Shown here one piece after another: positions 25,641-53,700 of a stretch of DNA of 64,000 bases. The notes beneath the pieces are model-generated. The model saw only the letters and a list, made by a program, of their open reading frames with translations. It was not told the DNA's origin and ran no database searches. The stretch is from Blakeslea trispora (Eukaryota; Mucoromycota; Mucoromycetes; Mucorales; Choanephoraceae), in NCBI GenBank assembly GCA_025331445.1, contig JAIWNE010000072.1, forward strand, positions 101,488 to 165,487. The letters run 5' to 3'. Made by a program: the position numbers and the translations under genes. The number at the start of each line of letters is the position of its first letter. Within the stretch, counting starts at the first letter, position 1.

Positions 25641-25815
25641 ATAGACTGCCATATAAAATTTCTCTATGCCATCCTCTTCATATACCCTACTGTGCGAGAA
25701 AAGTATACACCAAAAAATACAGAAATGATTGATTCCATTGTAAACGATATTAATAAAAGGGTATTTTTTTATAGTCATGTGTGTCGCAGACACCGTCACT
25801 TCAATTTTGGGGGGT

Positions 25816-28800
25816 AGGGGACATGAAATAAAATACTTGAACTTCCGAAAATAAAAAATTTTAAATGCAGAGCGTTTCAATTTTAGCTTGATTGGCATAA
25901 GATGGTGTTTTTATTGGCATATTTAAGCATAGTATTTGATATGAAATGTTAGCATACATTATTAAATAAGTGAATAATAGTAGTTATGAGCATATAATGG
26001 GCATAAAATGAATGTGTCATGCAATAAGCATAGAGTGAGATCGGCATATATTGGAAGAAATCTAGTACTCAAACATAGAGTTGGAGATATGCTCTCCTAC
26101 TTGATTTAAAGAGTACTTCTTTCTTATACAGCCTTACTCAATTATTTGTGCTGCCTCTTCGCAAGTAATACCCTTTTCCATAAATGCTTTCTCGATTTCC
26201 TAAAATTAGGCAATCTTCTAAGGAAAAATCTTGACTCAGTTTTGGAACCTTAACTTCGCCACTTTACATTAGAGGTCTCTTCAAAAGACTTAACTGAGGG
26301 GCCACCTTCAATTCCAACGGAATACTCTCTCCAAAGGTCTGTAACTGTTACCAAGTTTCTCTTCATCTTATAAGTGGGCACTTCGTTTTCAGAACTGGTA
26401 ATAGCACGTGTATTCAAGCTCACCGTTGGAGCATTTGATAGAAGAGAAGAGGCAGAAAGAGATGGTATGCTTCTTGGTTCTGAAGGGGCATCGCCTTGTC
26501 TCACTTGTATCGATGCTTGCAATAAGGCGTCCGCCAAGAGAGTCCTGTTGGAGAGCTGCATGTTTCTTATGTTATCCAAGTTGTGATGTATCTTGGAATC
26601 AAACATGCTCAAGGTAGTATTAACTGCATCAAATCCAGCCTTCATTACAGCAGCCATTTCAGGCATCAGAACTTCTAGATGCTGACTCATACTAAACTTG
26701 CTATCATTTGTGGTGATGCTTTGGCTCAATTCGCTTTCAAATCTCTTGTAAACATCAGTTTCGAAAATTGCATTGGTCCACATGTAATGGTGAGGATACT
26801 TTTTTTTCGACACTACGGAGTCTTATATAAATAGATGGGAAAATCGTTTAGTTATATTGCACAACAAGATGACTCTATTTGATTTCTTTTTTACCTGAAG
26901 GAAGACAGTTCGTAAATGATCAAGAACTTGAAGAAAGTTAGGACCAGCAATGTCTTCTTGAACCTCTTTGTTGAGGTACTTCTCTTTCCAGTGCTCGATC
27001 TATGGGAATACCATCTTTCTCAGTTCATCTGGAGGAGATACGCAATCACGACTGATGAAATAATCACCCTTCCGGGTGGAGAAACCTGCCAAGACCTTGA
27101 TGGCATCCACAGGCAGACCAGACAGATAACACCCAACCATTCTATCCGCACCCTAACGTCCTACTTGTCTCTGCTGATCACCCGAGACACCTTGATGGGC
27201 AATCATATTGATGGCACTCTTACTATTGATATATGTTACTTTGCTTGAGCTTATACCAACGTGGGTGAAAACCTTTCGGTATACCTTGGCCTGTTCTTCA
27301 TAAGTGATACAATCATCACCATTCTTATTGGGGAAGAGATAGCTATCGTAGCAAGACTTTCGCTCGGTGAAATTGGGAAAGGCCTTGTTTTCATGATGGA
27401 TTCTTGAAAAAATATTGTGCAGAAGCACCAACAGGACGAAGTTCAACATTTGCGTGTCGAAGGCAGGAACCATACTGAATCTTGCCATTTTTGTTTGTTT
27501 CATCGAAAGTGATGGTGTCAGCAATAGCGACGCACTCGGATACGCCTAGGTTTTCAAGCTACATACAAAAGAGATTGGGTAATTGAGCGCCCAAAGCAGT
27601 TTCACTTTGAAGAAGCATGGCATTACTCATTAGAAAACAACCACGGTTTCGAATTGCAGTAATGCTGTTTTCGGTGAAGAAAAACTCATTGACCTTGATC
27701 AATTCGTCGCTGGTATAGCCATCGTTAAGAGTATTTTTGCCATGATCTTCATACTCATCACGCTTGCGCTTTGTTTCTTTTTTACATTGGTGTCAAAAAA
27801 ACGCTTGACAACACTACCTTTAGGATGACCATGGTTATTAAATCCCAAGTCTTTTTATTGATTGTATAAATCAACAACAGCCTTGATGTAGGCCAAGATT
27901 GATTCATGACCTAAAGGAACAAGGTACCATCTGACTTCTTTTGCTTGTTCTTTCCTCGAGCCATCACAAAAGTCTTGAGGAATAAAGCCAACTTTTCATC
28001 GTACACAGTTTTTCCATTAGCAAAACCGCTTGATTTGCACCATTCCTACATAAAAGTTTGCAATTAGTAATTATATTCAGCACTTTACTATAAGATACAT
28101 ACTCTCCATTCTTGTTGCTTCTTTTCGTAAGCGACAGTAGTGTTCTTGGGTCTAGGAACTTGGTTTTCAGCAATAATTAGCTGAGTGTTTTGAGTCATTG
28201 CCATCTTGTTTTAACCATATTCTGGTGAAAAGAGTCTTCAGAAAGGCTGTTAAGATCACAAGTTAAAGATACGCCTTGGCTTTTAGAAGACACGGCATTC
28301 TGAATAGCACGGGGATCATAAGATGATGAAGAAGCTTCGCAGTTGTTGTTCATTTTCAGGTTTAATAAGATTTTATAAGAAGAGAAATTGAGATAGAGAA
28401 CAAGAACAAAATTAACAATTAAGCACTATATTTATATTCAACACATTTCACTTGTCCTTTCAAATTGATACAAAGCATTCTATAGATAGGTCTTAAGAAA
28501 AACAATTACATTTATTAAAGACAATATGATCAAAAAGACCTGAGTTTGTATGCTTTATTGCTCAATTTGTTGTTGATTTATTAATGCAATTTGTGAATTC
28601 AATTAACATGTCAAAATCTGTACTCCGTCAAACAAAAAAGGTAGGTCAACCCCCCCCACAGCGGTGGCTAAAGTATCTGACCTTTGCTTTCATTGGCTGA
28701 ACATAATACTCTTCTGAATTATTTAGAGGGAACATAAGTGACGGAGTAGCTGAGGTAAAATTTATTTTTTCATATCGGAGTTGAAAAAAAGGGGGTAAAA

Positions 28801-28845
28801 TAGAATACCGACGCGATGGGGAGGGAACATGAGTGGACATGAGGT
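25816..28845 (-). mobile_element. Decayed Crypton
   Basis: It is homologous to the element at 41247-44337, in inverse orientation. The 5' end (minus) has ACCTCATGTCCACT at 28832-28845; the 3' end has ATTTCATGTCCCCT at 25816-25829. These match the 14-bp direct repeat of the intact copy with one and two changes. Similarity appears to continue a little beyond both repeats. Confidence 0.8.
26131..28353 (-). pseudogene. Crypton tyrosine recombinase, dead copy
   Basis: It starts MNNNCEASSSSYDPRAIQN at 28353 and can be followed, with frame breaks, to AAQIIE and a stop near 26131. Well preserved parts are SYLFPNKNGD, SAINMIAHQGVSGDQQRQVG, GCYLSGLPVDAIKVLAG, HHYMWTNAIFETDVYKRF and the GCR1_C-like YKMKRNLVTVTDLWREYSVG. 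The catalytic HxxR of the intact copy (THINR) is YINS here, and the following tryptophan codon is a stop. It is therefore inactive in both chemistry and frame. Confidence 0.88.
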
Positions 28846-28859
28846 TATAATACTGTTGT

Positions 28860-32185: not shown

Positions 32186-33601
32186 TTGTCAATTATTATT
32201 CCCCAATCTCGTCCGCACATTTTGGTACCCAAAGTGTCCCAATCCGACAACTCTAGCACATTCACCAACGCGATTCACGACATTTCGACATCTTCAACTA
32301 AAGATCTCGACTTCGAAGCCTCATCTACAAAGAACCTAGCATCAGAACCAGCTGAAACTTTGTCAGAATCTATCTCTGTATTAGAAACATCACCTATTAA
32401 AGTTTCAAGTCTCTCCGGTAAGCGCTTGCATAGTTCACTTTCGCCGCCTTTGATCCCTGCCGACATGACGCGTACCTTGCCGAGATCTCGAGTTGATGAC
32501 GTCAGCATCTCTTCGACATCTGCTCCACTTGAGCTGAACAAAGACGTTGTCTTTGACTTTGGTCTCTCTGTTGCTCCTTCTCTCTCTGGTGCTGATTCTT
32601 TGCCAGAGGTAAGTAATGTTTCTTTGCTCTCGTCGGCCTCTCCCTCTTCCTCTGCTCCTCCTGCTTGGTTTGCTGCTTTTCAGGCCAAGTTTGAAAAGTA
32701 TGAAGAGCGTCTCTCTCAGTTGGAGTCTCTTGTTGCTGAGAACTCGGCACTCAAGAAAGAGCTTGCCGCTGCTCGTGCCAAGATCTTGGAACTTGAGAAC
32801 AAGTCTGGTCCTTCTCTCTCTTTGTCCCCGTCTGTTGATGTAGCAATGGATGATGACTTGCTTCCTTCTTCCTTGCCTGCTCCTTCTGTCTCTCCTTCGG
32901 CCGCCGTGTCTAAATGGGCTCATGTTGCTGCTGCTGCTCCTACACCTGCTGAGGCCTATGGTAAGTCCAACAAGTCGGTTTCCTCTTTGGCTGTTCAGGC
33001 CAAGCCCAAGAAAAAGATCACGCCTCGCCAACGTAAGGCCGCTGCTCGTATCTTTCTTGTTTCTTCTCCGGCTGGCTCTTCAGTAGACTCACCTCTCTTT
33101 GAGTATGTTTACTTGCCAAACAAGTATCGGGACCGTCTCTCTGCTTTCCGTCATAAGCTGCGACTTATCGGATTGGATAACAGCCGTGTCCTTGATGTGC
33201 ACTACCCAGCTCGTAACGTTGTAGCTTTGCTCATTCACACTGCTTACAAGGCTGATCTTCTCAAGGTCATGGACAAGTATTCTCTCCCGGTCTTGACAGA
33301 CTTTGATCCTTTCTCTGGATCCAATGTCTTTGATCCTGCTTTTGCCTCTCTGGATGCCGATGCTCTCACTGCCAAGGCTCGTGAACTGCAACAAGCTCGT
33401 CTTCTTCGTGCTCTTGGCTATGTTCGTGAACAAACGCGTAGACTGGTGGCCTACGACTTTGTCCGTCAAGGTTGGTTGTCAAAGGAACAGGCTGGTACTG
33501 TAGTTGGTCCTCTCTCTTCTGTAGTTGGTGTTGACTCTGCTCCCTCTACTGATATGGAAATTGCCTTGGCCGGTGACGGTGAACCGGTCTCATCCTCTTA
33601 A
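32186..33601 (+). CDS. LINE ORF1 protein (left arm)
   Basis: A 471-codon frame with a Ser/Thr-rich start, a coiled-coil-like stretch (FEKYEERLSQLESLVAENS, about residues 165-205), a Ser/Ala/Pro-rich linker, a basic segment (AKPKKKITPRQRKAAARI), and a conserved C-terminal domain with SPLFEYVYLPNKYRDRLSAF and DNSRVLDVHYPARNVVALLI. There is no zinc knuckle. The same C-terminal domain is recognisable in the relic at 13052. The frame opens at a TTG (32186); the first ATG is only at 32465, so translation may start at a non-ATG codon. The stop TAA overlaps the ORF2 ATG (TAATG). Confidence 0.8.
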   Translation: MSIIIPQSRPHILVPKVSQSDNSSTFTNAIHDISTSSTKDLDFEASSTKNLASEPAETLSESISVLETSPIKVSSLSGKRLHSSLSPPLIPADMTRTLPRSRVDDVSISSTSAPLELNKDVVFDFGLSVAPSLSGADSLPEVSNVSLLSSASPSSSAPPAWFAAFQAKFEKYEERLSQLESLVAENSALKKELAAARAKILELENKSGPSLSLSPSVDVAMDDDLLPSSLPAPSVSPSAAVSKWAHVAAAAPTPAEAYGKSNKSVSSLAVQAKPKKKITPRQRKAAARIFLVSSPAGSSVDSPLFEYVYLPNKYRDRLSAFRHKLRLIGLDNSRVLDVHYPARNVVALLIHTAYKADLLKVMDKYSLPVLTDFDPFSGSNVFDPAFASLDADALTAKARELQQARLLRALGYVREQTRRLVAYDFVRQGWLSKEQAGTVVGPLSSVVGVDSAPSTDMEIALAGDGEPVSSS

Positions 33602-34700
33602 TGAGTACCAATCCTATGCCTTCTTATGAACCTATGCCCCCTTCCTCTCCTTCTACCTATGACTTTACTATGACTATATGGAATGCTAATGGTATTGCTC
33701 GTCAAGCCATTAGTACTGTTACTGACTACTTATATGACTCTTCCCTCATCTTCATCACCGAGACTTGGCTACTCTCTCCTCTTCGTTTTCCCACCTCTTG
33801 GCAACAGTATCATACCTATGGTCAACCTGTTGCTGACTCTTTCCGTGGCAAGATGGGTATCTCTCTTTTGGTCAATCCTACTTGTCCTTACCCAGTTACT
33901 CCTCTCCTTTCTTCCTCTCCTTATGTCTTTTCTTGTCAAGTCTCTACCTTTCTCATTCATTGTGTCTATGCCCCTCCTTCTCTGTCCGATGATGAGTTTA
34001 TGTCTCTCATTATGTCTCTCCCTTCTCGTACTCATGCCTCTCAGACCAACGCATTCATCTGTGGCGATTTGAATGCGCGTAGTGTTCCTCTTCTTGGTGA
34101 CTCTCGAAGTAACACTCGTGGTACTCGTCTGGCCGAATGGGTTGAGGAAGCTGGTCTTTTCTGTTGGAACTCTCTCTTGGCAAAAGGTGTTCCAACTCTG
34201 TTCTCTCAAAGTCGCATGGCTAACTCTCAGCCTGGTCACTCCAGTTGGAGTAGCGTAATTGACCTCTTTATCAGCTTTGATGATCTAGTTGCTCCTTCTC
34301 TTGTTGTCCGTGATGCCGGCCTTGGTTCTGACCATGTTCCTGTCTCTCTGTCTTGCTCTCTGTCTTCTCTGCCTCCTGCACCAGTTGCTCATCCGCGTCT
34401 TTTATGGAAACTGTCTTGTCTGGATGATCACAAGAGTGTAGAGCTGTATCAGTCTCTTTTCAGGTTGCATAGCGCACCTATCAAAAATACACTCTTGGCA
34501 GAAGTTAAGTATTCTATTTGTCAAGCCTTCGGGCAACATAGCAGTCGTACCTCTACTCACGCAGCTCTCCCAACTGAAAGGGTTATCCCTGATGTTGATT
34601 CTATTGCTAGTAGCCTCACTGATACCATCCACCGTTGTCTCGATGAGTCTGTTGGTCGCAAACAGCCACGACCTCCTGGTAACACCTGGTTCTGGACTTA
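33601..34700 (+). pseudogene. LINE ORF2 endonuclease part (left arm)
   Basis: It starts ATG at 33601, overlapping the ORF1 stop. Motifs of an AP-type endonuclease (EEP fold) are in order: IWNANGI, FITETWLLSP, HCVYAPPSLSDDE, ICGDLNARSVPLLGD, SVIDLFISFDDL and the catalytic-end GSDHVPVSLSC. After about 366 codons the frame runs into the mariner. The reverse transcriptase that must follow in an active LINE is absent, so it cannot retrotranspose alone. Confidence 0.88.
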
Positions 34701-36331
34701 CAGTGACCCGCAAAACTGTTCAAAAAGATTTTTTTTTACTTTGAACCTTATGATCGGGTATTCAAACACATTTTAAACCCCTCTTGTTATACCTTGTTGG
34801 AAAGCCTCAGTAATTTACTATATGATGACCAGGTTGCACAATGATTGGTTGACCTTGAAATGAAAACCACTATTTTAAAAAAAAAGTTTTTTTGAACAGT
34901 TTTGCGTGTGTCCGAGAAAAATTATAACCAAGAGAAGGGGGCTAGTATTTGAAATTATTTTGACGCGTAATTGCTTTTTTTCTTCTTTTCTTCACTTTTT
35001 TAAAGGTTTGTGTAAACTTTGGTTGGTTTTGTCAGACCAATTTAATCGACATTGCTCCATCTAGTTACATCTACTTGACATCTACCAACATGCCCAAACA
35101 CATCAGCAATGACAAACGAAATGACGCGAAAGCTATGCTTTCCAAAGGTGAAAATGTTCGCGAAGTAGCGCGTCAGCTTGGTATCAGTCAAGGTACCGTT
35201 TCAAACATTCGTGGTGAGATGAACTTGGAGATTCCTCAACATGCGGGTGGCCGACCAGGTAAGATCAGCGAGAATCTCGGTCGCAAGGTACTTCAAGGTC
35301 TTTCTACTGGCGTTTTCAAGACCGCAAAAGATGCGCAGCGATTCCTGGCTGATCAACAAGTTGTTGTTTCTGAGGATACCGTGCGTAGGTTTCTCAAAAG
35401 CGCCAAAATGACAGCTATTCATAAGCCAAAGGTCCTTCCTCTAACACCTAAGCGTATGAAAGACCGCTTGGAATGGGCCGAGGCTCACAGAAGTTGGACT
35501 ATCAACGATTGGAGGTCCGTGATGTTCTCCGATGAGACCAAAATCAACAGAATTGGCTCGGATGGTGCTCAATGGGTTTGGAAAGCCGATGATAAGGAGT
35601 TGAAAGCGTTTCAGCTTGACCATCTCTACAAGCATGGAGGTGGTTCCATCATGCTTTGGGGCTGCTTTTGTTGGAAAGGTCCAGACTTTCTTGCGAAGAT
35701 CAATGGCAAGATGGACTCTGAGTTGTACACTCAAATCATAGACGATGAGTTGGTCAGATCGCTAGAATTCTATGGTTATACTGAGGATGACGCCATATTT
35801 CAGCATGATAATGACCCCAAGCATACTTCCAAGCATACCAAACGTCATCTCAAGGAGTGCAACATTCAAGTTCTCGACTGGCCGTCCTTCTCGCCCGACT
35901 TGAATCCCATTGACAACCTTTGGAGTATAGTCAAAAGACGTTTAGCTGCCTTTGACACTGCTCCAGGCTCTATTGCTGAGTTATTTGATCGTGTAACTCA
36001 AATTTGGAACAATATTGATCCTGAAACATGCAACAATCTTGTTGAAAGCATGCCTAATAGAATAGCTGATCTTATTGTCGCTAAAGGTGATCAAATCCTC
36101 TATTAATAAAAATATAATGCACACCCGCAAAACTGTTCAAAAAAACTTTTTTTTTAAAATAGTGGTTTTCATTTCAAGGTCAACCAATCATTGTGCAACC
36201 TGGTCATCATATAGTAAATTACTGAGGCTTTCCAACAAGGTATAACAAGAGGGGTTTAAAATGTGTTTGAATACCCGATCATAAGGTTCAAAGTAAAAAA
36301 AAATCTTTTTGAACAGTTTTGCGGGTCACTG
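34701..36331 (+). mobile_element. Tc1/mariner element, apparently intact
   Basis: TIRs of about 210 bp run from CAGTGACCCGC to GCGGGTCACTG, with TA at 34699-34700 and 36332-36333. Each TIR carries the motif CGCAAAACTGTTCAAAAA at its outer end and again, inverted, at its inner end. It holds one open transposase gene and sits at the exact centre of the LINE palindrome. Confidence 0.95.
35090..36106 (+). CDS. Mariner transposase (DD34D)
   Basis: Cut-and-paste transposase of the Tc1/mariner superfamily, 338 residues from the ATG at 35090 (an upstream TTG is in frame but less likely). The N-terminal helix-turn-helix VREVARQLGISQGTVSNIRG (about residues 18-37) and a second DNA-binding part (EDTVRRFLKSAKMTAIHKP) precede the catalytic core: FSDETKIN (first D), FQHDNDPKHTSKHTK (second D) and SPDLNPIDNLW 34 residues later. 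The third catalytic position is normally E, and the dead sister copy has NPIENLW; here it is D. The frame is intact. Whether the D form is active is unknown; related mariners use DD34D naturally. Confidence 0.93.
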   Translation: MPKHISNDKRNDAKAMLSKGENVREVARQLGISQGTVSNIRGEMNLEIPQHAGGRPGKISENLGRKVLQGLSTGVFKTAKDAQRFLADQQVVVSEDTVRRFLKSAKMTAIHKPKVLPLTPKRMKDRLEWAEAHRSWTINDWRSVMFSDETKINRIGSDGAQWVWKADDKELKAFQLDHLYKHGGGSIMLWGCFCWKGPDFLAKINGKMDSELYTQIIDDELVRSLEFYGYTEDDAIFQHDNDPKHTSKHTKRHLKECNIQVLDWPSFSPDLNPIDNLWSIVKRRLAAFDTAPGSIAELFDRVTQIWNNIDPETCNNLVESMPNRIADLIVAKGDQILY

Positions 36332-36333
36332 TA

Positions 36334-37431
36334 AGTCCAGAACCAGGTGTTACCAGGAGGTCGTGGCTGTTTGCGACCAACAGACTCATCGAGACAACGG
36401 TGGATGGTATCAGTGAGGCTACTAGCAATAGAATCAACATCAGGGATAACCCTTTCAGTTGGGAGAGCTGCGTGAGTAGAGGTACGACTGCTATGTTGCC
36501 CGAAGGCTTGACAAATAGAATACTTAACTTCTGCCAAGAGTGTATTTTTGATAGGTGCGCTATGCAACCTGAAAAGAGACTGATACAGCTCTACACTCTT
36601 GTGATCATCCAGACAAGACAGTTTCCATAAAAGACGCGGATGAGCAACTGGTGCAGGAGGCAGAGAAGACAGAGAGCAAGACAGAGAGACAGGAACATGG
36701 TCAGAACCAAGGCCGGCATCACGGACAACAAGAGAAGGAGCAACTAGATCATCAAAGCTGATAAAGAGGTCAATTACGCTACTCCAACTGGAGTGACCAG
36801 GCTGAGAGTTAGCCATGCGACTTTGAGAGAACAGAGTTGGAACACCTTTTGCCAAGAGAGAGTTCCAACAGAAAAGACCAGCTTCCTCAACCCATTCGGC
36901 CAGACGAGTACCACGAGTGTTACTTCGAGAGTCACCAAGAAGAGGAACACTACGCGCATTCAAATCGCCACAGATGAATGCGTTGGTCTGAGAGGCATGA
37001 GTACGAGAAGGGAGAGACATAATGAGAGACATAAACTCATCATCGGACAGAGAAGGAGGGGCATAGACACAATGAATGAGAAAGGTAGAGACTTGACAAG
37101 AAAAGACATAAGGAGAGGAAGAAAGGAGAGGAGTAACTGGGTAAGGACAAGTAGGATTGACCAAAAGAGAGATACCCATCTTGCCACGGAAAGAGTCAGC
37201 AACAGGTTGACCATAGGTATGATACTGTTGCCAAGAGGTGGGAAAACGAAGAGGAGAGAGTAGCCAAGTCTCGGTGATGAAGATGAGGGAAGAGTCATAT
37301 AAGTAGTCAGTAACAGTACTAATGGCTTGACGAGCAATACCATTAGCATTCCATATAGTCATAGTAAAGTCATAGGTAGAAGGAGAGGAAGGGGGCATAG
37401 GTTCATAAGAAGGCATAGGATTGGTACTCAT
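36334..37431 (-). pseudogene. LINE ORF2 endonuclease part (right arm)
   Basis: Its translation is identical to the left-arm endonuclease over all LINE-encoded codons, with the same motifs (FITETWLLSP, ICGDLNARSVPLLGD, GSDHVPVSLSC). It is cut at the same base by the mariner and has no reverse transcriptase. Confidence 0.88.
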
Positions 37432-38846
37432 TAAGAGGATGAGACCGGTTCACCGTCACCGGCCAAGGCAATTTCCATATCAGTAGAGGGAGCAGAGTCA
37501 ACACCAACTACAGAAGAGAGAGGACCAACTACAGTACCAGCCTGTTCCTTTGACAACCAACCTTGACGGACAAAGTCATAGGCCACCAGTCTACGCGTTT
37601 GTTCACGAACATAGCCAAGAGCACGAAGAAGACGAGCTTGTTGCAGTTCACGAGCCTTGGCAGTGAGAGCATCGGCATCCAGAGAGGCAAAAGCAGGATC
37701 AAAGACATTGGATCCAGAGAAAGGATCAAAGTCTGTCAAGACCGGGAGAGAATACTTGTCCATGACCTTGAGAAGATCAGCCTTGTAAGCAGTGTGAATG
37801 AGCAAAGCTACAACGTTACGAGCTGGGTAGTGCACATCAAGGACACGGCTGTTATCCAACCCGATAAGTCGCAGCTTATGACGGAAAGCAGAGAGACGGT
37901 CCCGATACTTGTTTGGCAAGTAAACATACTCAAAGAGAGGTGAGTCTACTGAAGAACCAGCCGGAGAAGAAACAAGAAAGATACGAGCAGCGGCCTTACG
38001 TTGGCGAGGCGTGATCTTTTTCTTGGGCTTGGCTTGAACAGCCAAAGAGGAAACCGACTTGGTAGACTTACCATAAGCCTCAGCAGGTGTAGGAGCAGCA
38101 GCAGCAACATGAGCCCATTTAGACACGGCGGCCGAAGGAGAGACAGAAGGAGCAGGCAAAGAAGAAGGAAGCAAATCATCATCCATTGCTACATCAACAG
38201 ACGGAGACAAAGAGAGAGAAGGACCAGACTTGTTCTCAAGTTCCAGGATCTTGGCACGAGCAGCGGCAAGCCCTTTCTTGAGTGCCGAGTTCTCAGCAAC
38301 AAGAGACTCCAACTGAGAGAGACGCTCTTCATACTTTTCAAACTTGGCCTGAAAAGCAGCAAACCAAGCAGGAGGAGCAGAGGAAGAGGGAGAGGCCGAC
38401 GAGAGCAAAGAAACATTACTTACCTCTGGCAAAGAATCAGCACCAGAGAGAGAAGGAGCAACAGAGAGACCAAAGTCAAAGACAACGTCTTTGTTCAGCT
38501 CAAGTGGAGCAGATGTCGAAGAGATGCTGACGTCATCAACTCGAGATCTCGGCAAGGTACGCGTCATGTCGGCAGGGATCAAAGGCGGCGAAAGTGAACT
38601 ATGCAAGCGCTTACCGGAGAGACTTGAAACTTTAATAGGTGATGTTTCTAATACAGAGATAGATTCTGACAAAGTTTCAGCTGATTCTGATGCTAGGTTC
38701 TTTGTAGATGAGGCTTCGAAGTCGAGATCTTTAGTTGAAGATGTCGAAATGTCGTGAATCGCGTTGGTGAATGTGCTAGAGTTGTCGTATTGGGACACTT
38801 TGGGTACCAAAATGTGCGGACGAGTTTGGGGAATAATAGTTGACAA
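37431..38846 (-). CDS. LINE ORF1 protein (right arm)
   Basis: A 471-codon frame with the same domain order as the left arm: Ser-rich start, coiled-coil-like FEKYEERLSQLESLVAENS, basic linker and C-terminal YVYLPNKYRDRLSAF domain. I count six residue differences from the left arm, all in the N-terminal half: I3T, S8T and one each in VSQSDN, ASEPAE, KKELAA and GKSNKS. It also opens at TTG, with the first ATG far inside. The stop overlaps the ORF2 ATG. Confidence 0.8.
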   Translation of the reverse strand: MSTIIPQTRPHILVPKVSQYDNSSTFTNAIHDISTSSTKDLDFEASSTKNLASESAETLSESISVLETSPIKVSSLSGKRLHSSLSPPLIPADMTRTLPRSRVDDVSISSTSAPLELNKDVVFDFGLSVAPSLSGADSLPEVSNVSLLSSASPSSSAPPAWFAAFQAKFEKYEERLSQLESLVAENSALKKGLAAARAKILELENKSGPSLSLSPSVDVAMDDDLLPSSLPAPSVSPSAAVSKWAHVAAAAPTPAEAYGKSTKSVSSLAVQAKPKKKITPRQRKAAARIFLVSSPAGSSVDSPLFEYVYLPNKYRDRLSAFRHKLRLIGLDNSRVLDVHYPARNVVALLIHTAYKADLLKVMDKYSLPVLTDFDPFSGSNVFDPAFASLDADALTAKARELQQARLLRALGYVREQTRRLVAYDFVRQGWLSKEQAGTVVGPLSSVVGVDSAPSTDMEIALAGDGEPVSSS

Positions 38847-39337: not shown

Positions 39338-41000
39338 CACTACACCGAAGAGGTTGGCAAACGAACCATGATATTTACGGAACACACGTCTGCTTCGTAC
39401 GGAACCTACTTGGCACTCCCAATTCATTTGCCGTCGTGGAAACCTGGGTTCGAAACAAATCTGTTTCACATGACGGCGAATGAATTTCAATAAATGCATT
39501 CGTTACCACGACGGCAAATGAACCACGGTTACTGCCTCAATTTCCACGACGGCAAACAGATTACGAGAACTGCCTCGTTTCCAACGTGTGTTCCGTATCC
39601 ATTGGAGCGACCTGATTGGATTACATTGTTGAAATAGTTCTTCCAATTGGCTTCTTTTCGCAAAAATACATTCAATATTTCGTTCTGATTGGGTTCATAC
39701 TCGGTATTTTTATTAAAATAGATGATTGCAATTGGATAGAATAGGCTTCTTTACGCAAATATACTTCTTTACAATTGGACTGTTTACAGCAAATATAGAG
39801 AATTAGAGGTTTAAACAAGTGGCTTTTTATTATAGAAAAAACTTTTTTGATTGAAAATAGTGGCTTCTTTACGGGGAAAATACTAGGGGATTAGGTAAAA
39901 AAAAAAGCAATAATCGGTAGATGTAGAGAATATAGCCAGAAAAAAACCGATAGAAATGGCAAATTGCTTTTACAGAAAACGATGATAAAAGCGATCAGAG
40001 TACAGACAAGAGCAATTCGAATTGAGACACAAACGCAACAGATGGACCATAAAGGCAGATGGAGAGAGACAGCAATTTTACATACAAAAGGCAGAAAACA
40101 AACCAAACAAGGAACAACCGGATTTAAACTAAAACAACATCATCATTAGTTAAAAACGAAATAGCACGAAAAGAAATGACAAATGCACTTACAGACAATC
40201 CATAGTCAGAGGCTATACGAAAGGCAGTTTACCGTGTCAAAGGAGCATACCAGTATTTGAAAGCCTAAAAAGAAAGCAATAATTTATACTGAAATCATAG
40301 ATTCTAATTTCTTACTTACGTTTGAAAAAGCCATCAACAGGGTCCTTGTAAATAATATCATTATTAAGCACAACTAGGCTCTGAACGAAAAAAGTACGTG
40401 AATAAAAAGAATTACAACATAGATGTTTATGAATAATTACCTCAAGTTATACAACAAAGTAAACACATATCAATTAAAGACAAGAACTAAGTAAATGGAA
40501 GTAGACTATTAGTGGCTTGACCGAAGAAAAAAAAGAAAAGAAAAAGACTTACCTGTATACTTTGAAAAAAAGTAATAAAAAGGTAGAAAAAGAGAAAAGA
40601 AAGGAAAAAAGAAAAAATTTCAACTTATTGACAGCTTCCTATTTGGGTCTTGTCAATAACAAAAAAAGAGAGAGAGAGAGAAATATCACACTGACAGGTT
40701 TTATTATTGAATCACCGACACAAGAATAAAATATCCTGACTTTACTTAAATGTTAAAAAATCTATGAAAAGCGACTAAGAGAGCGCTTCAAGTGCACTAT
40801 AAGCATCCAGTAATAAACCCCTTTGATATAGCTACAAACAGGCATCTCTTTTCTTTTTTTTGTGTCGAAAAAACGACATTAGACCTGTCGACATGGGCAC
40901 GTATGAGTACATTTTGAAAAAATAAAAAACAAAGAGCAATAGCTTTATTCAATCTCAGCCGAAATCATACACACTTTTTTTTTCTCTCACTTGAATTTAT
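39338..41000. mobile_element. CACTA element, left end and body (right end not found)
   Basis: It begins CACTACACCGAAGAGG. The first 260 bases contain at least four CGACGGCAAA-type subterminal repeats in both orientations. From about 39600 the sequence parallels 57430-57720 of the complete CACTA at 57203-60148 (shared GCGACCTGATTGGATT, CATACTCGGTATYTTTATTAAA, GGCTTCTTTACG). No matching right terminus is visible, and the border near 41000 is approximate. Confidence 0.7.
40193..40378 (-). pseudogene. Intron-bearing gene fragment in a CACTA element
   Basis: On the minus strand two short exon-like pieces (40320-40378 and 40193-40264) are bounded by AG acceptors and GTAAGT donors with a 55-nt intron between them. 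Spliced, they read LVVLNNDIIYKDPVDGFFK and then RFQILVCSFDTVN before a stop. I do not recognise the protein. A similar arrangement lies in the sister element (57919-58111). Confidence 0.35.
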
Positions 41001-41737
41001 TTATTTTTTTTATTACAAGTAGCCTCAACTCATACTTTATTTATCTTGTTGAAAGCAGATGAGACTTAGCGAGCTTATGTCGTTTCAGCAATGCAGTATA
41101 TTGGACACAGACATTCCAAGCGTGGACTCTGGTTTGGAAGTACAACGAAAAGAGAACAGTCAGGAAAGCTTTTAAGCTGCAAGTTGACTTCAATCTAAAA
41201 AAAAAAAGAATATCAGGCTGTTACTTTTTTCTTCTTCAGTATCATAACCTCATGTCCCCTCATGTTCCCCCGCCGTCGCAAGGTAATTTTGTTTTACCTA
41301 TGTTTTTTCGACTCCGACATACAAAAATTAAATTTTACCTTTGGTAATCCGTCATCCATGTTCCCTCCTAAATGACTTGAGAAAGTAAATTGTCTAGCCG
41401 ATGATAATAAAGCTCGTTCAATTTAGCCTCCGTCTTGGGGGTCGACTTTCTATTTTTGTCTAATGGAGTACCAAATCCTTCACCACTTAATTTAATAAAT
41501 CAAATGCATTTGCAAGATTCAAATAATAAGGCAAATTTTCTTGATTATATTGTATTAAATCAATTCATATATGTTCTCAAAACCTAATGTGTCATAAACA
41601 TCATGTTGAATTAGTAAGCTCTTTTCAGTCAATTGATTGCAATCTCAAGGTTATAAATACGATGCAAATTTGAAGCTATTGTACTTTGTTTTAATCTTTC
41701 TCTCTTAACGACACTCAACATTTTTACCAATCCGAAA

Positions 41738-44028
41738 ATGTACAACAACTCTGAAGCTTCCTCTTCTTCTTATGATCCTCGTGCAGTCCAAAATGGCGAG
41801 TCTTCTCAAAGCCAAAACATGTCGGTAACATGCAACCTTAACAGTCTTTCTGAAGACGATCTCTACAGAAACATGGTTAAAAACAAGATGGCCATGACTC
41901 AGAGCACTCAATTGATCATTGCTGAAAACCAAATTCACCGTCCAAAGAATACTATTACTGCTTATATCAAGAAGCAACAGGACTGGAGAGTAAGTTTTTG
42001 TTAGATAAAAAAATCAAATCCACATATTAACGTTAAAATTTGACAAAGGAATGGTGCAAGTCTGAAGCTTTTGCTGATGGTGAAACTGTATACGACGAGA
42101 AGTTAGCTATGTTTCTCAAGACTTTTGCGATGGTCCGTGGAAAGAACAAGCAAAAGAAGTCAGATGATACTCCTGTTCCTTTGGGTCGCGAATCAATCTT
42201 GGCATACATCAAGGCTGTTGTTGATTTGTATAATCAACAAAGAGAACTGGGATTCAACAACCATGGCCACCCAAGAGGTAACATCGTCAAGCGCTTCTTG
42301 GATACTAACGTCAAGAAAGAGATGAAGCGAAAGCGCAATGAGTATGAAGATCGTGGTAAGAACACTCTCAATGACGGCTATACCAACGACGAATTGGTCA
42401 AGGTCAACCAGTACTTCTTCAACGAAAACACCATCTACGCTGTTAGAAACCGTGCTTGCTTTTTGATGAGTCATGCCATGCTTCTTAGAAGTGAAACTGC
42501 GCTGGGTGCTCAATTGCCTGATCTGTTCTGTATGGAATTGGAGAATCAAGGTGTTTCCAAGTGTATTGCTGTTGTTGCCACCATTACCTTTGGTAAAACC
42601 AATAAAGATGGTAAGATTCAGTATGGTTCCTGCCTTCGCCATGCCGATGTAGAGCTTTGTCCTGTTGGTGCTTTCGCCCAATACTTCTTCTCGCAATTTC
42701 ATCATGAAAACAAGGCCTTTCCTAATTTCACCGAGCGAAAGTCATGGTACGATAGCTACCTCTTCCCCAACAAGAATGGTGATGGTTCTATCACTTACGA
42801 AGAACAGGCCAAGGTATACCGTAAGGTTCTCACCAACGTTGGCATCCATTCGAGTAAGGTTACTCACATCAATCGTAAGAGTGCCATCAATATGATTGCT
42901 CACCAAGGTGTTTCGGGTGATCAGCAGAGACAAGTAGGACGTTGGGGTGCGGAGAGAATGGTTGGGTGTTATCTGTCTGGTCTGCCTGTGGATGCTATCA
43001 AGGTATTGGCAGGTTTTTCCACCCGGAAGGGTGATTATTTCATCAGCCGTGATGCTGTGATCCCGTCTGAAGGGCTGAAGAAGATGGTCTTCCCTCAGGT
43101 TGAATACTGGAAAGAGAAGTACCTCAACAAAGAGGTTCAAGAAGACATCGCTGGTCCTTACTTTCTTCAATTTCTTGATCATTTACCAACTGTCTTCCTT
43201 CAGGTATGAAAGCTTAATGTAGTCTTCTATTTGTACATCCTAACTAAACTCTACCTCTATCAATCCAATTAGGATTCTGTTGTTTTGAAGAAGAAGTATC
43301 CTCATCACTACATGTGGGCAAACACCATCTTTGAGACCGACCTATTCAAGACTTTCGAAGACCAATTAGGCCAAACTCTTGCAGTAAATGACGACAAGTT
43401 CAAGATGAGCCAACATTTAGAAGTCCTAATGCCAGAAATAAGTGCTGCCATCAAGGAGGGATTCGATTCCGTGGGCAGTACCTTTAGAATGTTCGATGGC
43501 AAGACTCAGCACAACTTTGAGCAAGTCAAGAAGATGCAAGTTGCAAACCGAGACCTTTTGGCGGATGCGCTATTACAAGCTTCTATTCAAATGAGACAAA
43601 GTCATTCAAGAGATCCACTGCCTGTATCTGCTTCTTCTTCTTTGCCTGTTTCTTCCTCTCTTCCTGTGAACACAAGCCTACAAGCTGATGCGAATCAAGA
43701 AGAAGCAATGCCTCGGTACAAGATGAGTAGAAACCTTGTGACAATAACATATCTCTGGCGAGAATACTCGGTAGGAATTGGAGGTGGTCCTTCTTTGAAG
43801 ATGCTAGAAGAAAAGTACAATGCAACATGGAGAAGTCCAGAGTCGAAGACCGAATCAAGATACTACCTTAGAAGACTCCCAATCTATCAAGAGATTGAAA
43901 GAGCTTCTTTGGAAAAAGGCATCACACATGAAGAAGCAGCACAGCTACTTGAACTGGGTTGTTTAAGAAGCAAATACTCTTTGAACCAAGTGGGAGAGAA
44001 AATCTCAAAGTCTTCTTTTGACTACTAA
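41738..44028 (+). CDS. Crypton tyrosine recombinase (Ndc10-like, GCR1_C-like tail)
   Basis: Three exons (41738-41989, 42049-43203, 43273-44028) join without frame breaks to about 720 residues. Introns are 59 and 69 nt with GTAAGT/GTATGA donors and AG acceptors. The core shows the tyrosine-recombinase set: R in MLLRSETAL, K in TFGKTNK, HxxR in VTHINRKS, W in VGRWGAER and the nucleophile Y nine residues on in GCYLSGLP. This arrangement fits Ndc10/Crypton recombinases. The C-terminal part holds YKMSRNLVTITYLWREYSVG, a GCR1_C-type DNA-binding domain. All catalytic residues are present, so it may be active. Family names come from motif memory, not a search. Confidence 0.88.
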
Positions 44029-44067
44029 TGTTGCATGCTGATATGCCCAAATAATGCCCAAATTATG

Positions 44068-44122
44068 CTAATACTATGATAATACTATGCCAATACTATG
44101 CTAATACTATGTTAATACTATG
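44068..44122 (+). repeat. 11-bp minisatellite, five units
   Basis: CTAATACTATG repeats with single changes directly downstream of the Crypton recombinase stop. Confidence 0.85.
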
Positions 44123-44337
44123 CTAATTTCAATTCATGTTTATAATGCTTTCAAGCCTATTTAACCTTATGATCTTCAAAACATACATCTGTACTTTACA
44201 CGTAAAAAAAAAACTATGCTTAAACATACTAATAAATATATCAACATATGACTTAAAGACTATAATCCTGCTTGAATCGATTTACACTGTTGCTTTTGAA
44301 TTTTTCGGAATTTGAAGTAAAATACCTCATGTCCCCT

Positions 44338-44699
44338 ACCCCCCATTTAATTTGGGTGACGGCGCCCGCGACACCACTATTTTATACAAAATATCCTCTC
44401 AGTAATTCATATTAATAATTGTTTTCCTTTTTATTTTTAGTAATAGATACATACCATGAACCACTCAAAAATAGTTTAAAGAAAGAACGAAAGGAAAAAG
44501 AAACTAAGAAATTTTAATTGGTTTTTCACGATTTAAATGTTTTGTCCTGAGCCACTTGGTGTTTAAACCATGTTTCATTCAAATTACGATTGTGTCAAAT
44601 CAATTCAAATCAAAGTATCTAATGCTGACAGTATAAAAGACTTTGTGCCTGATCTCATTTTGTTGATTGTCTTTAGCATCATTTTTATACAAATCAAAC
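44338..44699. other. Stretch between Crypton and CACTA accessory gene
   Basis: The first 60 bases are still similar to the flank of the decayed Crypton (GTGACGGYG, GCGACAC). The rest is upstream sequence of the gene at 44700. No other feature seen. Confidence 0.4.
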
Positions 44700-45849
44700 A
44701 TGTTTCACACTACCACTTCCAACAACACCAACACTAACGCCGTTGCTGTTCCCATTCCTGTAACTAACGCTGTCAGCATCAGCGGTACTGTCTCTACTCC
44801 TCGCCAGAACAACACGGCCATCAACAGAGAGGTACAAGAGTTGAAGCGAGCCCTTGCTAACACCAATCAGCAGCTTCAAAGTGTCGAGGCCAAGAACAAC
44901 CAGCTATCTCGCCAGCTGAGTGACTTGAATGAGAAATTTACTACCAACTCGACTGCCAATGATACCAAGTTTCGATTCCCTGGCACTAAAGACGATTTAG
45001 AGATACTCCGTGTTAGTACTGTTCATAATCTATTCTTTCGACTTTACTCATCGTTTCTATTTAGTGTCTTATAATCGATATTGAAAGAGAACAGCTCGGC
45101 GAAGATGACTGGAGACTAGATGAGACACTAATCAATGGTCCTTACAATGGACAAAAAGTGAAGACAATCATCAGCAATTTTGAGGTACATCACACGTACT
45201 TTATTATTCTTCGTGATAAAGTCTGGAGCTCTACAGACAGAGCAAACTTTGTCAAGTATGTCCTTGGCAAACGCTTCAACAGCCTTCGTGACGAAAAAAA
45301 GAAGAAGGATTTGCCAGAAGAAGCTAAAGAAAAAATCCAAAGAAAGAATAGTTATGCGACTCGCAAATCACAAGTAAGATATTTTGATTACAAGTTCTCA
45401 TGTTTCGCAATCGCTAACAACAATATTTCGATAAACAGATCTTGAAGAGAAGAAGAAACGCGTACAGCAATTTCAAGCATCGTCTTCAAGGTTACTATGG
45501 AACGGATGCCGAGTGCACTTCAGTACTCGTTCCAGAAATGATTTTAGACCAAGAGGACGAGTTAGATGCTGATGGTGAAAAAGTAAGATTAAGAAAGACT
45601 CCAAAATATAGAACAGAAAAGGTTAGTAGACTACAGCAAACTATTGTAAATAAAATAGCTAATTTACTTAAATAGTGTGACGAGTTTTTTGATGAGTTGG
45701 ATGCAATTCGCAATGCTAACACAAAAGCCAGAAACCGTCGATTTATACCCACCAAGATTGGTTCAAGAATTCGGAAGGAATCACACACCATTACTTCAGA
45801 AATACTTGCTGCTTTGCCAACATGGGCTATTGATAAGAATTCTGTTTGA
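44700..45849 (+). CDS. CACTA accessory protein of unknown function
   Basis: Four exons (44700-45011, 45065-45373, 45439-45621, 45676-45849) join to 325 residues. Every exon is a whole number of codons, so all introns are phase 0. Donors are GTTAGT, GTAAGA and GTTAGT; acceptors are AG. The N-terminus is Asn/Thr/Val-rich, followed by a coiled-coil-like stretch (REVQELKRALANTNQQLQSV). The middle is very basic (RKNSYATRKSQ, ILKRRRNAYSNFKHR), then comes an acidic patch (QEDELDADGEK) and a basic tail ending PTWAIDKNSV. I recognise no family. Being convergent with the transposase genes, it may be a DNA-binding partner like TnpA of plant CACTAs; this is inference. Confidence 0.78.
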
Positions 45850-47428: not shown

Positions 47429-49659
47429 TTAATGCATACAGTCGCGAAGATGCAGCATAAAATGGAAATTGGGTGGAACAGATTCAGAGCCGTAGGCTTG
47501 TTCGTATTGCTTTGCAAAGTTAAGGAGATGAGTATGAACTACATCGATATCAGACATTTTTATCACACCAGAATCAAGGATTCGGAGAGCATGGATCAAC
47601 TCCACCATGTGCATGTAAATAGAGGCATCAAGAGTGGGAGGACAAAGGAGAGCATGGGTCATAGAGGTCATAAAGTCTTTATATTCGACTGCTTTGACAT
47701 ATGGGAACCCAGTTTTAATGATTTTTTTTGACATAGGATTGCCAGGAGCTTGGGGATTGAAATCCATATGGTTTTGCATGATCTTTTGAACCTTCAGATA
47801 AGCATCTTCCGGCATCATTTTGATTAAAGCAGTTTTTGCAGCACCCAAGTACAGAACATGCATAGGCTCAATAGCCAACAAGTCGTAAGAAAAGTAAGGT
47901 AACTTGAAAAGCACCGAAAAACGAACACCACTTTCTTGCTCTAATTCTTGTCGGTGTTTTGCTGTCACAGCCTTCTTCCAAGCACGAGAGCTTGCTCTTG
48001 TTTCTTCTCGGGTTCTTCTTCTCCAAGTGTCACAATTCCAGTTGCAATAGTTTCTTTGGTTGCCAGGTCCTGCAATGCTTGGAAACTGTGTATGACACAA
48101 GTGACAACCGAAATTACTATTGAAGAACATGCTGCTTGCTAGTTTCTTGATTGCTGGAAGATCCGAACAGATTGTAGCTAAGCACGCCCTGACATTGGTT
48201 TTGACAACTGAACCATCTTTCATCACCATTGCCATTTCTACACCTTCTAACAACACGAGCAACTCATCCACCAATGGCTTCAAGTAATGATTGAATGCGG
48301 TAGTAGGAGGTTCTTTAGGACCAGGAATGACTCCTACGAGTATCATGTTCTTTTTGAAGTCACGGCCGTTGGCTTTAGGTAAGTTTTGTATAGTGAGGTA
48401 TATACACCCTACACTATAATGGGCACTAAATGGACCAAACCAGTCAACGTTCAGAGTGAGGAGCAGATTATAGTCACCGAGGAAGGCGAAAGGAAGAGGG
48501 TCGTTTGGAAGTGCCTTGAACTCAGCGAAACCAGTACCATCGTAAATGTCAAGCATATATCCGGGAACAATCTCGCGGCTTCTCCATTCGTTAATCCGGT
48601 CAGCAAAGCCTTGGCGCAGAAAGAACTTTTTGAGTGTTGAGATGATCGAACAGTACGGATATTCTTTTTGAGGGACAAGTCTTGCAACCTCTCTTGTGTA
48701 ATCGTAGTCATATACTTTGCCTTTACAGTATCTTTCTGACTTCTTTGGCTTGAATACTGCATTTTGAAGGTCTTGGTTGCAAACAATATCCTCACCTCCA
48801 GGCTCGTTCTTCTGTTCATAGAGATGATGGCAACTGGTACAGACATTGTAGAATTTTATACCATCATTACTCAGTTTGAAAAGTTGGCTTCTTTTTAAGA
48901 ACTTTGCTAATGTTCTTGGAAAGCGGAATGCATCGTTTTGAATTTCCAACAAACTGTTAAGATCTTGCATGTATTTTTCGATCTGGTTGCGAGGAGTACT
49001 GTTGTTGAAAATGTCAGTAACCAGCTGAAAGAGGATCTTGGAAGAAGGGCTTTGAGAAAGTTTATCAGCTAAGTTGAGAAAAGAAACGAGTTGGTATTAG
49101 ACTACTTGTACTAAAATAGCTATTATAGAACTACTTACATAGAAGATCAAATTCAGAAGGTGTAGCAGGCTTAGGCTCAGGCTCGGACTCAGTTGTAGAT
49201 GCAGTTGTAGGCTCAGGTTCAGTTGCAGTTACTGGCTCAGGCTCAGTAGAAGCATTAACCGGCTCTTCAACTTCATCGATTTGCATTGGATCTACTGAAA
49301 ATAATTTTATCAGTTCTTTCTCTTTATGCAGACATCACAGTTTAACAAATTTACCAGAGTTTGATGGTTGTTCAGCCAATTCAGTTGTTGGATTAAAGAA
49401 ATGAGGAGTACGTCTGTTGATTGAGTTCTCTATGGATTGAGAGGTAAAGAATTAGAATTAAATGTAAATTGTCTGAATCAGAGATAGATCACTTACTGTT
49501 GATTTCAAGCCATTGTTGATAGGGCATTTTATCATACTTGTTGTAAATTTTATGAGAACGATGGGTAGAAGGCTTGATGAACTTGGCCTCTTCAGGTCTG
49601 TTTTTGCAGATGTCACAAAAACAGTAGATGAAAGTGTTTCTAGTAGGCATAGCAGGCAT
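47429..49659 (-). CDS. tnp2: CACTA transposase, Tnp2 type
   Basis: Exons at about 49497-49659, 49355-49429, 49140-49294 and 47429-49068 join in frame (GTAAGT-type donors, AG acceptors) to about 678 residues. The start MPAMPTRNTFIYCFCDIC carries a CxCxxC segment, then comes an acidic Pro/Glu-rich linker (TEPEPVTATEPEP), then the Tnp2 core: LLLTLNVDWFGPFSAHYSVG, YLTIQNLP, MILVGVIPGPKEPP, FGCHLCHTQF and EPMHVLYLGAAKTALI. The frame stops at TAA (47429-47431) after HLRDCMH. The same frame then reads WGPISCFWAFNFERNNLF for some 60 more codons, where the family normally continues, so the stop probably truncates the protein. Exon borders may be off by one base. Confidence 0.85.
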
Positions 49660-50747: not shown

Positions 50748-53700
50748 TTAGATCAGGAGTTCTGGATAGATTATATTATCGATGAGATTTTGTTGGTTAG
50801 AAGGATCAGATTTATGCAAGACATGTATGCCTTGTAAGTTGGTGGAGCGAGAGAAAGCAACATATAGTTGGCCATGTGTGAATGGTGAGGTACGGAGGTC
50901 AATCCCAACGTTAGAAAGTGATTGACCTTGCGACTTGTTGATAGTCATGGCAAAACTTAGTTTGACAGGAAATTGTTTTCTTGGCAATATGAAGGGATAC
51001 CCATCTTCTAAGGTTGCTAGTTCTATTCGAAGAATGAGTTCAATTTGTTTTTGGTTGGATCGACTGTTGTTAAGGACAATGACTTTCAATATGTATTGAC
51101 CAATTTCTTTGACTACCAATCTGCTACCATTGCAAAGACTTTTTCGAGGGTCGAGGTTTCTTAAGAGCATCACAATACAGCCTACTTTCAAGGTCAACTT
51201 TGCAGGAGGAAAGTTGCCTGGGTTCAGCGTTTGAAGATACTCGTTAGTTACTCGATAAACCTCGTTGCTGGCATTTTCTTCTTGAGAATAGTCGGCTTTA
51301 TCTGCCGAAGCCAAAGTGACGGATTCACCAGGCATCAATTCGAGTACCTTTTCATTCAGCAAATCGACAGTATCATTTTTGAAGGTGAGTATAGCCGATT
51401 GTTACAACGACGAAGGGTTATGAATGATTCGATCAAGAGATTGTTGAGGATACACTCTAGAAATCATCTCGTTCAGCGAGTGAGTCTGAGAGATGTATTG
51501 GGGAAGAGGTATCTTTGCATTTTGCATAATAGAATTATAGGTTATAAGATAGAGCCATTTTTTGAAGTGGACATCATTTGGAGTACTGCCTCTTACTCGC
51601 ATATTCTGCTTTAAATGAAGTACTTGAGTTTTTCGCCAAATGTGTGATTGCTTAATTGAGGCTTCAACAATGTTAGCACGACTACCATTTCTGATTACTG
51701 GAGGTATTTGTGCAAAATCACCACCCAAAACAACTGGAAGGCCTCCAAAAAGTGCATTGTTGCTACGAATATCTTTGAGCGTGCGATTAACAGCTTCAAA
51801 GCAGCCTTTATTCTGCATAGGCACTTCGTCCCAAATCAGCAAAGAAGTCTCACAAAGCAGCTTAGCAAGTTTACTGTTTTTAGGAATGTAGCAGGAGGAG
51901 GTTTCATTGATCTTGATAGGTATTTTGAGCCTGAAATGAGATGTTCTACCACCAGACAAAAGCAAAGAAGCAATACCAGAAGACGCAACACACAATACAA
52001 TTTTTCTTTGACTTCTGAGGTAGCTGCTCAAAGTGTTGTAGACAAATGTCTTTCCTGTATTAGCTGGGCCGTGCAAAAAGAAGCATGTGTCAATTTCCAC
52101 ATGATCTGAACTTGTATTGATTGCCGAATCAAGAGAATGCAATTGGCTAACTATAGTATCAAAAGCTTGTTTTTGATCTGAATTGAACATGGCATAGTTT
52201 GAGCTATATGTAGCATTTTCCTCCTCAGAGTTGTAAGCTAGTTGCTCGCTTATCAATGCGTTATCATTGCGCTGTTCATTGCTATTACTGTTGATGGCAG
52301 AGATCCAATTGTGCTTGCATGATGGCAGGTTGAACTCATCAAGAAATTTACTCAGCCCATTCAATTTTACCTCAATTAGATGTAGTCCATAGTCGAGAGA
52401 GGGCAGCCCTTCATAAAAAGAATCATAGTCTATCGATCTGTACATCTGGTTGTCAGGGAATAGCTGCTGCAATCTGTGCTCAAGATCATCACAGATTGGA
52501 TGGCAAAATTTGGTCCACAACAAAAGAGGGTCTGCTAACTGACCGAAAGTCAATGCAATAACAAATAAGTTACGCAAATGAGCACCAGAAGCAAACAAAC
52601 TTGCTTCCTCAAAGCATTTTGACCATTCTTGATCATCCTCAATCAAATGCAATTGGAGGCAGGCTTCTTTGAAAGTTGTGCAATGGACTCCATTAATCGT
52701 TTTAAGATCATCAAAGGATTTGGATCCTGCAGCATTTGTCAAAAGAAGTCTCAAAAAATATCTTTCTCCACATGTAGGACTACAATTTGGAATTCTACCA
52801 ATTGCAAAGCCTTTCTTACGTGGTGCCCAGCTCTTTGTGTCTTGCTTCCAAACATGATGTTTAGGAAAATCCTGATATAGATACTTTTCGCTATCTGGGT
52901 TACTTTGATAATACTTGAAATAAGCAATGAGCATTGAGCTGCTCTTAGCTAAGATTTCTTGTATTTGAGGCGGAGATGCATCCTCAGGAAAGTATACGGG
53001 TTGTTCATTAGGTAAATGAAGGGCCAACGTTGTGACAGTGGGATCTTCTTCGTGTACTTTGTATTCAAAAATACGACCAAATGCTTCTGTAGGGCCAATA
53101 TACCTTCCCTGAAGATGTTTTTCAATTTCATCTTTTGTGTCACTTATTTTCAAAGTGGTGCGATCAGAGCCTTTGTATACATATTTGCTAATGTATTTGA
53201 TGGCTGCAACACCTTGACAGCATTCAACGTTTATGTGAGCCTTGTACTTCTTTGAGAGGTAGGGATTATAAAGCACAATCCAGCTATTGTCAATACTTAA
53301 ACGACTATTGCTATATCTCATAGGATCGGGTATCGTGTATGACGATCGGAAAGTTGCTGATTGTTTATATGTGGGATATCGGTTTTCATTCAACACAGTT
53401 TCTTCAGAGAAAGCTTTGGGAAATCGCTTGGTGCATTTGAGACGACCATTGCTATCCTTAGCCATACAGGGAGACTTTGGATTAAGATCACCGCAAGGTC
53501 CATGTACCATGTTTCTTGTGATGATTTCAAAAAGCTCAGGGTCAGATTCTTTACATGGCAATTCAGCTGAGATGATTTGATCAATTTTTTCCACAGTGTC
53601 TATGTTTTGTGAGTGATCCAAAAACAAAAGCAGATGCAAATGAGGAAGTCCTCGTTTTTGATATTCAATAGTTCGAACTAAGCCTTTGTAAGGTCCGAAT

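Follow-up and report, generated by a model that had tools for sequence, protein, structure and literature searches.

As far as the text of Kojima and Jurka (2011, PMC3212892) describes them, CryptonF elements encode a protein that combines YR and GCR1_C, have no TIRs, and are known from fungi including Zygomycota, with elements from Rhizopus oryzae among them. Their terminal direct repeats are short (4- or 6-bp) and are regarded there as recombination substrates, and the same text credits the proposal of a circular intermediate to Goodwin et al. With terminal repeats as short as these, the limits of a Crypton are difficult to establish. The word "empty" does not occur in the main text of that paper, and among the papers listed in our searches, judged by titles and abstract openings, none dealt with empty sites of Cryptons in Mucorales or with any Crypton of Blakeslea trispora.

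Here we describe a unit in a 64-kb stretch of DNA from the Mucorales fungus B. trispora (the window). On sequence grounds this unit, 41237-44399, is a CryptonF DNA transposon (Table 1). With the CryptonF elements described in PMC3212892 it shares YR and GCR1_C, the lack of TIRs and short terminal direct repeats; it differs from the description given there in its core, CAGTAT, which has empty-site support, and in a 14-bp subterminal repeat found in its subfamily. The terminal direct repeat CAGTA (41237-41241 and 44400-44404) falls within the 4-6 bp used as a criterion for CryptonF, and the same repeat is seen in relatives. We consider it very probable that the explanation as a whole is correct, that is, a CryptonF with a CAGTA(T) core and a subterminal 14-mer, integrated from a circle and followed by a later adjacent deletion.

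Table 1. Positions in the window of the predicted CryptonF element, its gene and the sequences at its ends.
Feature	Position	Strand	Remarks
Host repeat A, left flank	40897..41242	+	at least 39 other copies
CryptonF element (predicted)	41237..44399	+	3163 bp, from left CAGTAT up to right core; delimited by the breaks in the host repeats and by ends common to the C213 copy and the sister subfamily
Left core CAGTAT	41237..41242	+	CAGTA in 4/5 uninterrupted copies of host repeat A read
Left subterminal 14-mer ACCTCATGTCCCCT	41247..41260	+	exact; followed by a partial second copy, CATGTTCCCC
Recombinase exon 1 (predicted)	41738..41989	+	gene model
Recombinase exon 2 (predicted)	42049..43203	+	all catalytic residues and the NDC10_II match
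Recombinase exon 3 (predicted)	43273..44028	+	GCR1_C domain and stop codon
Right subterminal 14-mer ACCTCATGTCCCCT	44324..44337	+	exact match to the left one
Right core CAGTA (host repeat B)	44400..44404	+	host repeat B is CAGTAATTC in 17/17 close copies read
Host repeat B, right flank	44400..44867	+	at least 17 close and at least 20 distant other copies

The recombinase gene

The gene (41738-44028) has two GT-AG introns of 59 and 69 bp and a predicted protein of 720 aa. Only two domains pass the Pfam cut-offs in the spliced protein, the tyrosine-recombinase-like NDC10_II (E 1.8e-49) and GCR1_C (PF12550, residues 618-696, E 1.9e-19), and the residues R231, K267, H357-x-x-R360, W383 and Y392 could all be located in it. 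An earlier note on this DNA had claimed a complete, spliced recombinase gene with a GCR1_C tail, retention of R, K, HxxR, W and Y, and the absence of TIRs; the gene model and the domains bear out the first of these, the located residues the second, and the printed ends, judged by eye, the third. The gene of the window copy looks intact. In an alignment of exon 2 with 23 of 33 homologues, the columns of R and K (exon 2 positions 147 and 183) are at least 90% conserved, and HxxR, W and Y are retained in most of the homologues that reach that far, several of the 23 being fragments that end before HxxR.

Compared along its entire length, exon 2 shares 52% identity with Rhizopus delemar RO3G_13723; two further R. 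delemar proteins show 63-68% identity at 61-79% coverage. The named protein homologues come from Rhizopus, Phycomyces and Blakeslea. A search of the PDB with the alignment profile matched the YR-like region of yeast Ndc10/Cbf2 (PDB 6gsa, CBF3 subunit A; E 9.7e-5), the next matches being unrelated NADPH dehydrogenases (E at least 0.02), and the single sequence gave a weak integrase match alone (E 0.31). In the comparison with Ndc10 that had been proposed, both Pfam and the profile thus give a match. Ndc10/Cbf2 is, however, a host centromere protein, and the HxxR and Y positions are not kept in the profile alignment. The AlphaFold model of exon 2 has a mean pLDDT of 47. The six longest of the remaining stop-to-stop frames in the element, which reach 182 aa, gave no Pfam match, and neither in these six nor in the spliced protein did Pfam reveal a DDE transposase or a reverse transcriptase.

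Copies and relatives in the genome

The genome searched (37.2 Mb, 285 contigs) contains two further near-full copies, C213:185389-188472 and C61:40849-43910 (95% each), and many partial or diverged ones; a protein search gave at least 111 matches, many of which are pieces of one copy (106 of 163 candidates scored). Measured against the window frame, the C61 copy is free of coding indels but is interrupted by an internal stop codon (469). The C213 copy has lost single bases at three points and 15 bases at another, and contains internal stops, so that among the three the frame is uninterrupted in the window copy alone. The dN/dS of the window copy is 0.19 against the C61 copy and 0.45 against the decayed C213 copy; judged from the coding sequences, the window-C61 pair is under purifying selection.

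The genome also contains a sister subfamily (L040-L042, L044, L045, L047, L048, L057, L058), which starts CAGTATCTCAACC and ends AATACCCTCTCAGTA(T). Like the window element it has CAGTAT / CCTCTCA(GT) ends; it is approximately 3045 bp long and shows 57-60% protein identity. It differs in that its copies are 98.7-99.7% identical to L040, on account of which it is taken to be younger, and in its subterminal sequence, where the shared word TGAGACT is not significant. A more distant pair, L109 and L110, has approximately 38% protein identity, with 97.4% identity between the two; their shared ends, ATACATAGTAGGTATC...GATACCTA, are without CAGTAT and carry a short inverted AGGTATC/GATACCT. The CAGTAT core is therefore not general to all Cryptons of the genome.

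Other mobile sequences were also observed. The window holds a second Crypton of the same subfamily at 25750-28855 on the minus strand, which is decayed (70-75% DNA identity, stop codons in the gene); its left end reads CAGTATTATAACCTCATGTCC, and its right end has decayed. At C282:24485-31471, two Cryptons of different subfamilies (L046 and L058) lie approximately 150 bp apart, and this locus starts within the right half of host repeat A. Two reading frames of the window, 33583-34773 (+) and 36259-37449 (-), are 397 aa each and have a 15-residue peptide in common; for the frame on the minus strand there is a match to an endonuclease-reverse transcriptase domain (LINE-like). A 555-aa open frame at 47432-49096 (-) matches Transposase family tnp2 (E 6.9e-11), and a Pif1-type helicase extends across two frames at 50751-51998 (-; E 9.7e-55 and 6.7e-16), possibly from a Helitron or a subtelomeric helicase, both being guesses.

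Ends and core of the element

The flanks of the window copy are repeated host sequences. In all 39 other matches listed for the left flank (41000-41242) similarity stops at 41241/41242, and among the matches listed for the right flank it begins at 44400 in 17/17 close ones and at 44405 in 20 more distant ones. Since the host repeats stop and restart at these positions, the element lies between the CAGTA of 41237-41241 and that of 44400-44404. Five uninterrupted copies of host repeat A were read at the core: two have CAGTATTAAGC, two CAGTACTAAGC and the fifth CGGTA, in the wider contexts CTTCAGTATTAAGC (two), CTTCAGTACTAAGC (two) and CTTCGGTACTAAGC (one). The one distant copy of host repeat B that was read has CATTG at the core position.

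Comparison with other copies gives the same edges, as the similarity between the window and C213 copies reaches 41237 on the left and 44403 on the right. In a hand list of 11 copies with both ends read (window copy included), CAGT is found at both edges in nine, CAGTA in seven and CAGTAT in five; L009, L041, L046, L049, L050, L051, L054, L057, L063 and fragments were left out, an end being missing, truncated or outside the locus. Right cores are degenerate in two of the 11 (CAAAAT and CAGCAT), and L049 in addition has CATCAT at its right end. The C61 copy has the left core CAATAT and breaks off on the right after 44323; L050, L051 and L054 likewise stop short of the right core. Counted as distinct end contexts, CAGTAT is present in 19/21 left ends, CAGT in 13/15 right ends, and C or T as the seventh base in 15/15 right ends, with search patterns that fixed some of the letters (TAT on the left, CA on the right); the right pattern missed L052, and L055 duplicates L040. 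The bases beyond CAGT vary among the right ends, as is expected if the target supplies them. These ends show the predicted core of this Crypton family to be CAGT(AT), the ends reading CAGTAT... and ...CCTCT|CAGT(A).

Empty sites

When the two flanks of the C213 copy are joined, the resulting 505 bp find full-length matches at ten other places, with 94-97% identity. Each of these paralogous empty sites has a single core after TCGTC or TCGAC, CAGTAT in six and CAGTAG in four. The filled site reads GTCGTC-CAGTAT-CATAACC ... CCTCT-CAGTGT-TGGGG, i.e. two CAGT when filled against one CAGTA when empty. This insertion lies in the pol gene of a retrotransposon, with RVT_1 and RNase H domains, and the ten sites are not independent targets because all belong to one retrotransposon family.

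For L047, the corresponding search gave partial paralogues of 70-74% identity and a second, also interrupted copy of the same locus. The target of the L046 element has, for its left half, a paralogue within the window itself (59590-59793), with CAGT at the joint. An uninterrupted target of the window copy was not found when the genome was searched for a junction of host repeats A and B with up to 2 mismatches.

The 14-bp subterminal repeat

The earlier note had taken ACCTCATGTCCCCT for the strand-exchange core on either side of a 3.08-kb Crypton, and the repeat is indeed exact at both ends of the window copy and of the C213 copy; the C61 copy also stops exactly ahead of the right 14-mer. It does not bound the unit, however, since similarity runs past both repeats: approximately 65 bp beyond the right one are common to the window and C213 copies, and the host repeat starts only at 44400. 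The left 14-mer lies 10 bp from the start of the left core, and 62 bp separate the end of the right one from the right core. Moreover, the sister subfamilies differ in sequence there and yet have the same CAGTAT ends, and the 14-mer is absent from all ten empty sites, in which the nearest approach to it has 6 mismatches (105-121 bp read per site). An empty site without the 14-bp core, and copies whose similarity starts and ends elsewhere, had been named in advance as the observations that would speak against this reading; the former is provided by the ten empty sites, each with a single CAGTA, and the latter by the C213 copy among others. The 14-mer as strand-exchange core is thereby refuted, and we give that model practically no chance.

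The proposed genome search did reveal further copies, and the empty sites that were found hold CAGTA and not the 14-mer. Six exact 14-mers occur in the genome: two copies carry one at either end, the C61 copy carries one at its left end, and another is on C230 (L004, L085). The last was considered as an empty site and rejected as a stray match, its surroundings being without likeness, by eye, to the flanks of the element.

The 14-bp repeat alone is not significant, because exact direct repeats no shorter than 14 bp, with their copies 2-4 kb apart, are present four times in the window. When the right end was shuffled, however, the two end zones of the element had a word of this length in common in 0/1000 cases. 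In diverged members of this subfamily (the L011 left end and the L012 right end) the common word is 8 bp, which 80/1000 shuffles reach; sister subfamily B has a subterminal direct repeat of 7 bp (183/1000) and subfamily C one of 9 bp (8/1000). A subterminal repeat as a general feature of the subfamilies is thus only partly supported. The 14-mer may be a binding repeat within the ends, for the recombinase or for its GCR1_C tail.

Chimeric flanks and a possible mechanism

The recombinase would excise the element as a circle with the junction CCTCT-CAGTAT-C, and the circle would recombine with a chromosomal CAGTA(T), leaving one core on each side. The flanks of the window copy differ from this simple picture. 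On C32, host repeats A and B share one orientation and are separated by 5.19 kb, and on C24 they are approximately 5.17 kb apart, B there being a 72%-type copy; other contigs have different orders and distances of A and B. In the window copy the element stands exactly in place of the DNA that separates A and B elsewhere, and its half-sites derive from two CAGTA sites of the host repeat that are elsewhere approximately 5.2 kb apart. This suggests, from one case only, an adjacent deletion through the core: after insertion, one end would have recombined with a second CAGTA approximately 5.2 kb away, deleting the intervening DNA. An older rearrangement of the host would look the same.

If a host variant already had A next to B at CAGTA, simple insertion there would require no deletion by the recombinase, and the C213 copy, the sole insertion with full empty sites, is a simple one. 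However, no direct A-B junction was found elsewhere in the genome with up to 2 mismatches, all five A copies read continue into C/T-TAAGC, and 16 of the 17 close B copies read follow one identical other sequence, which makes such a variant rather unlikely. The exception among the B copies, L083 (C240:55488-55988), has a different sequence ahead of B, with the change just before ATATACAGTA; it could reflect a rearrangement at CAGTA in which no element took part. Ectopic recombination between a Crypton at A and another at B would likewise give chimeric flanks without action of the recombinase, and several closely similar copies are available for it, but among 111 sequences examined no Crypton end stands directly beside A's right half or B's left half, and we regard this origin as quite improbable. 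The adjacent deletion is the reading that we prefer.

Significance

All features tested fit the known CryptonF group; what is new is this element, with unusually clear empty-site evidence. The repeated host sequences give exact edges and, together with the ten empty sites, open the core, the expected circle junction and the target preference to direct tests; a plausible 14-bp core is corrected to CAGTA(T). It is tempting to speculate, as a possible though doubtful extension, that the recombinases of this clade need only 5-7 bp of target identity, CAGTA(TY), and also recombine an integrated end with a nearby CAGTA, the subterminal binding repeats diverging between subfamilies around a fixed core. 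If this were true, such recombinases would remove kilobases of DNA next to the element and rearrange the genome in a site-specific manner.
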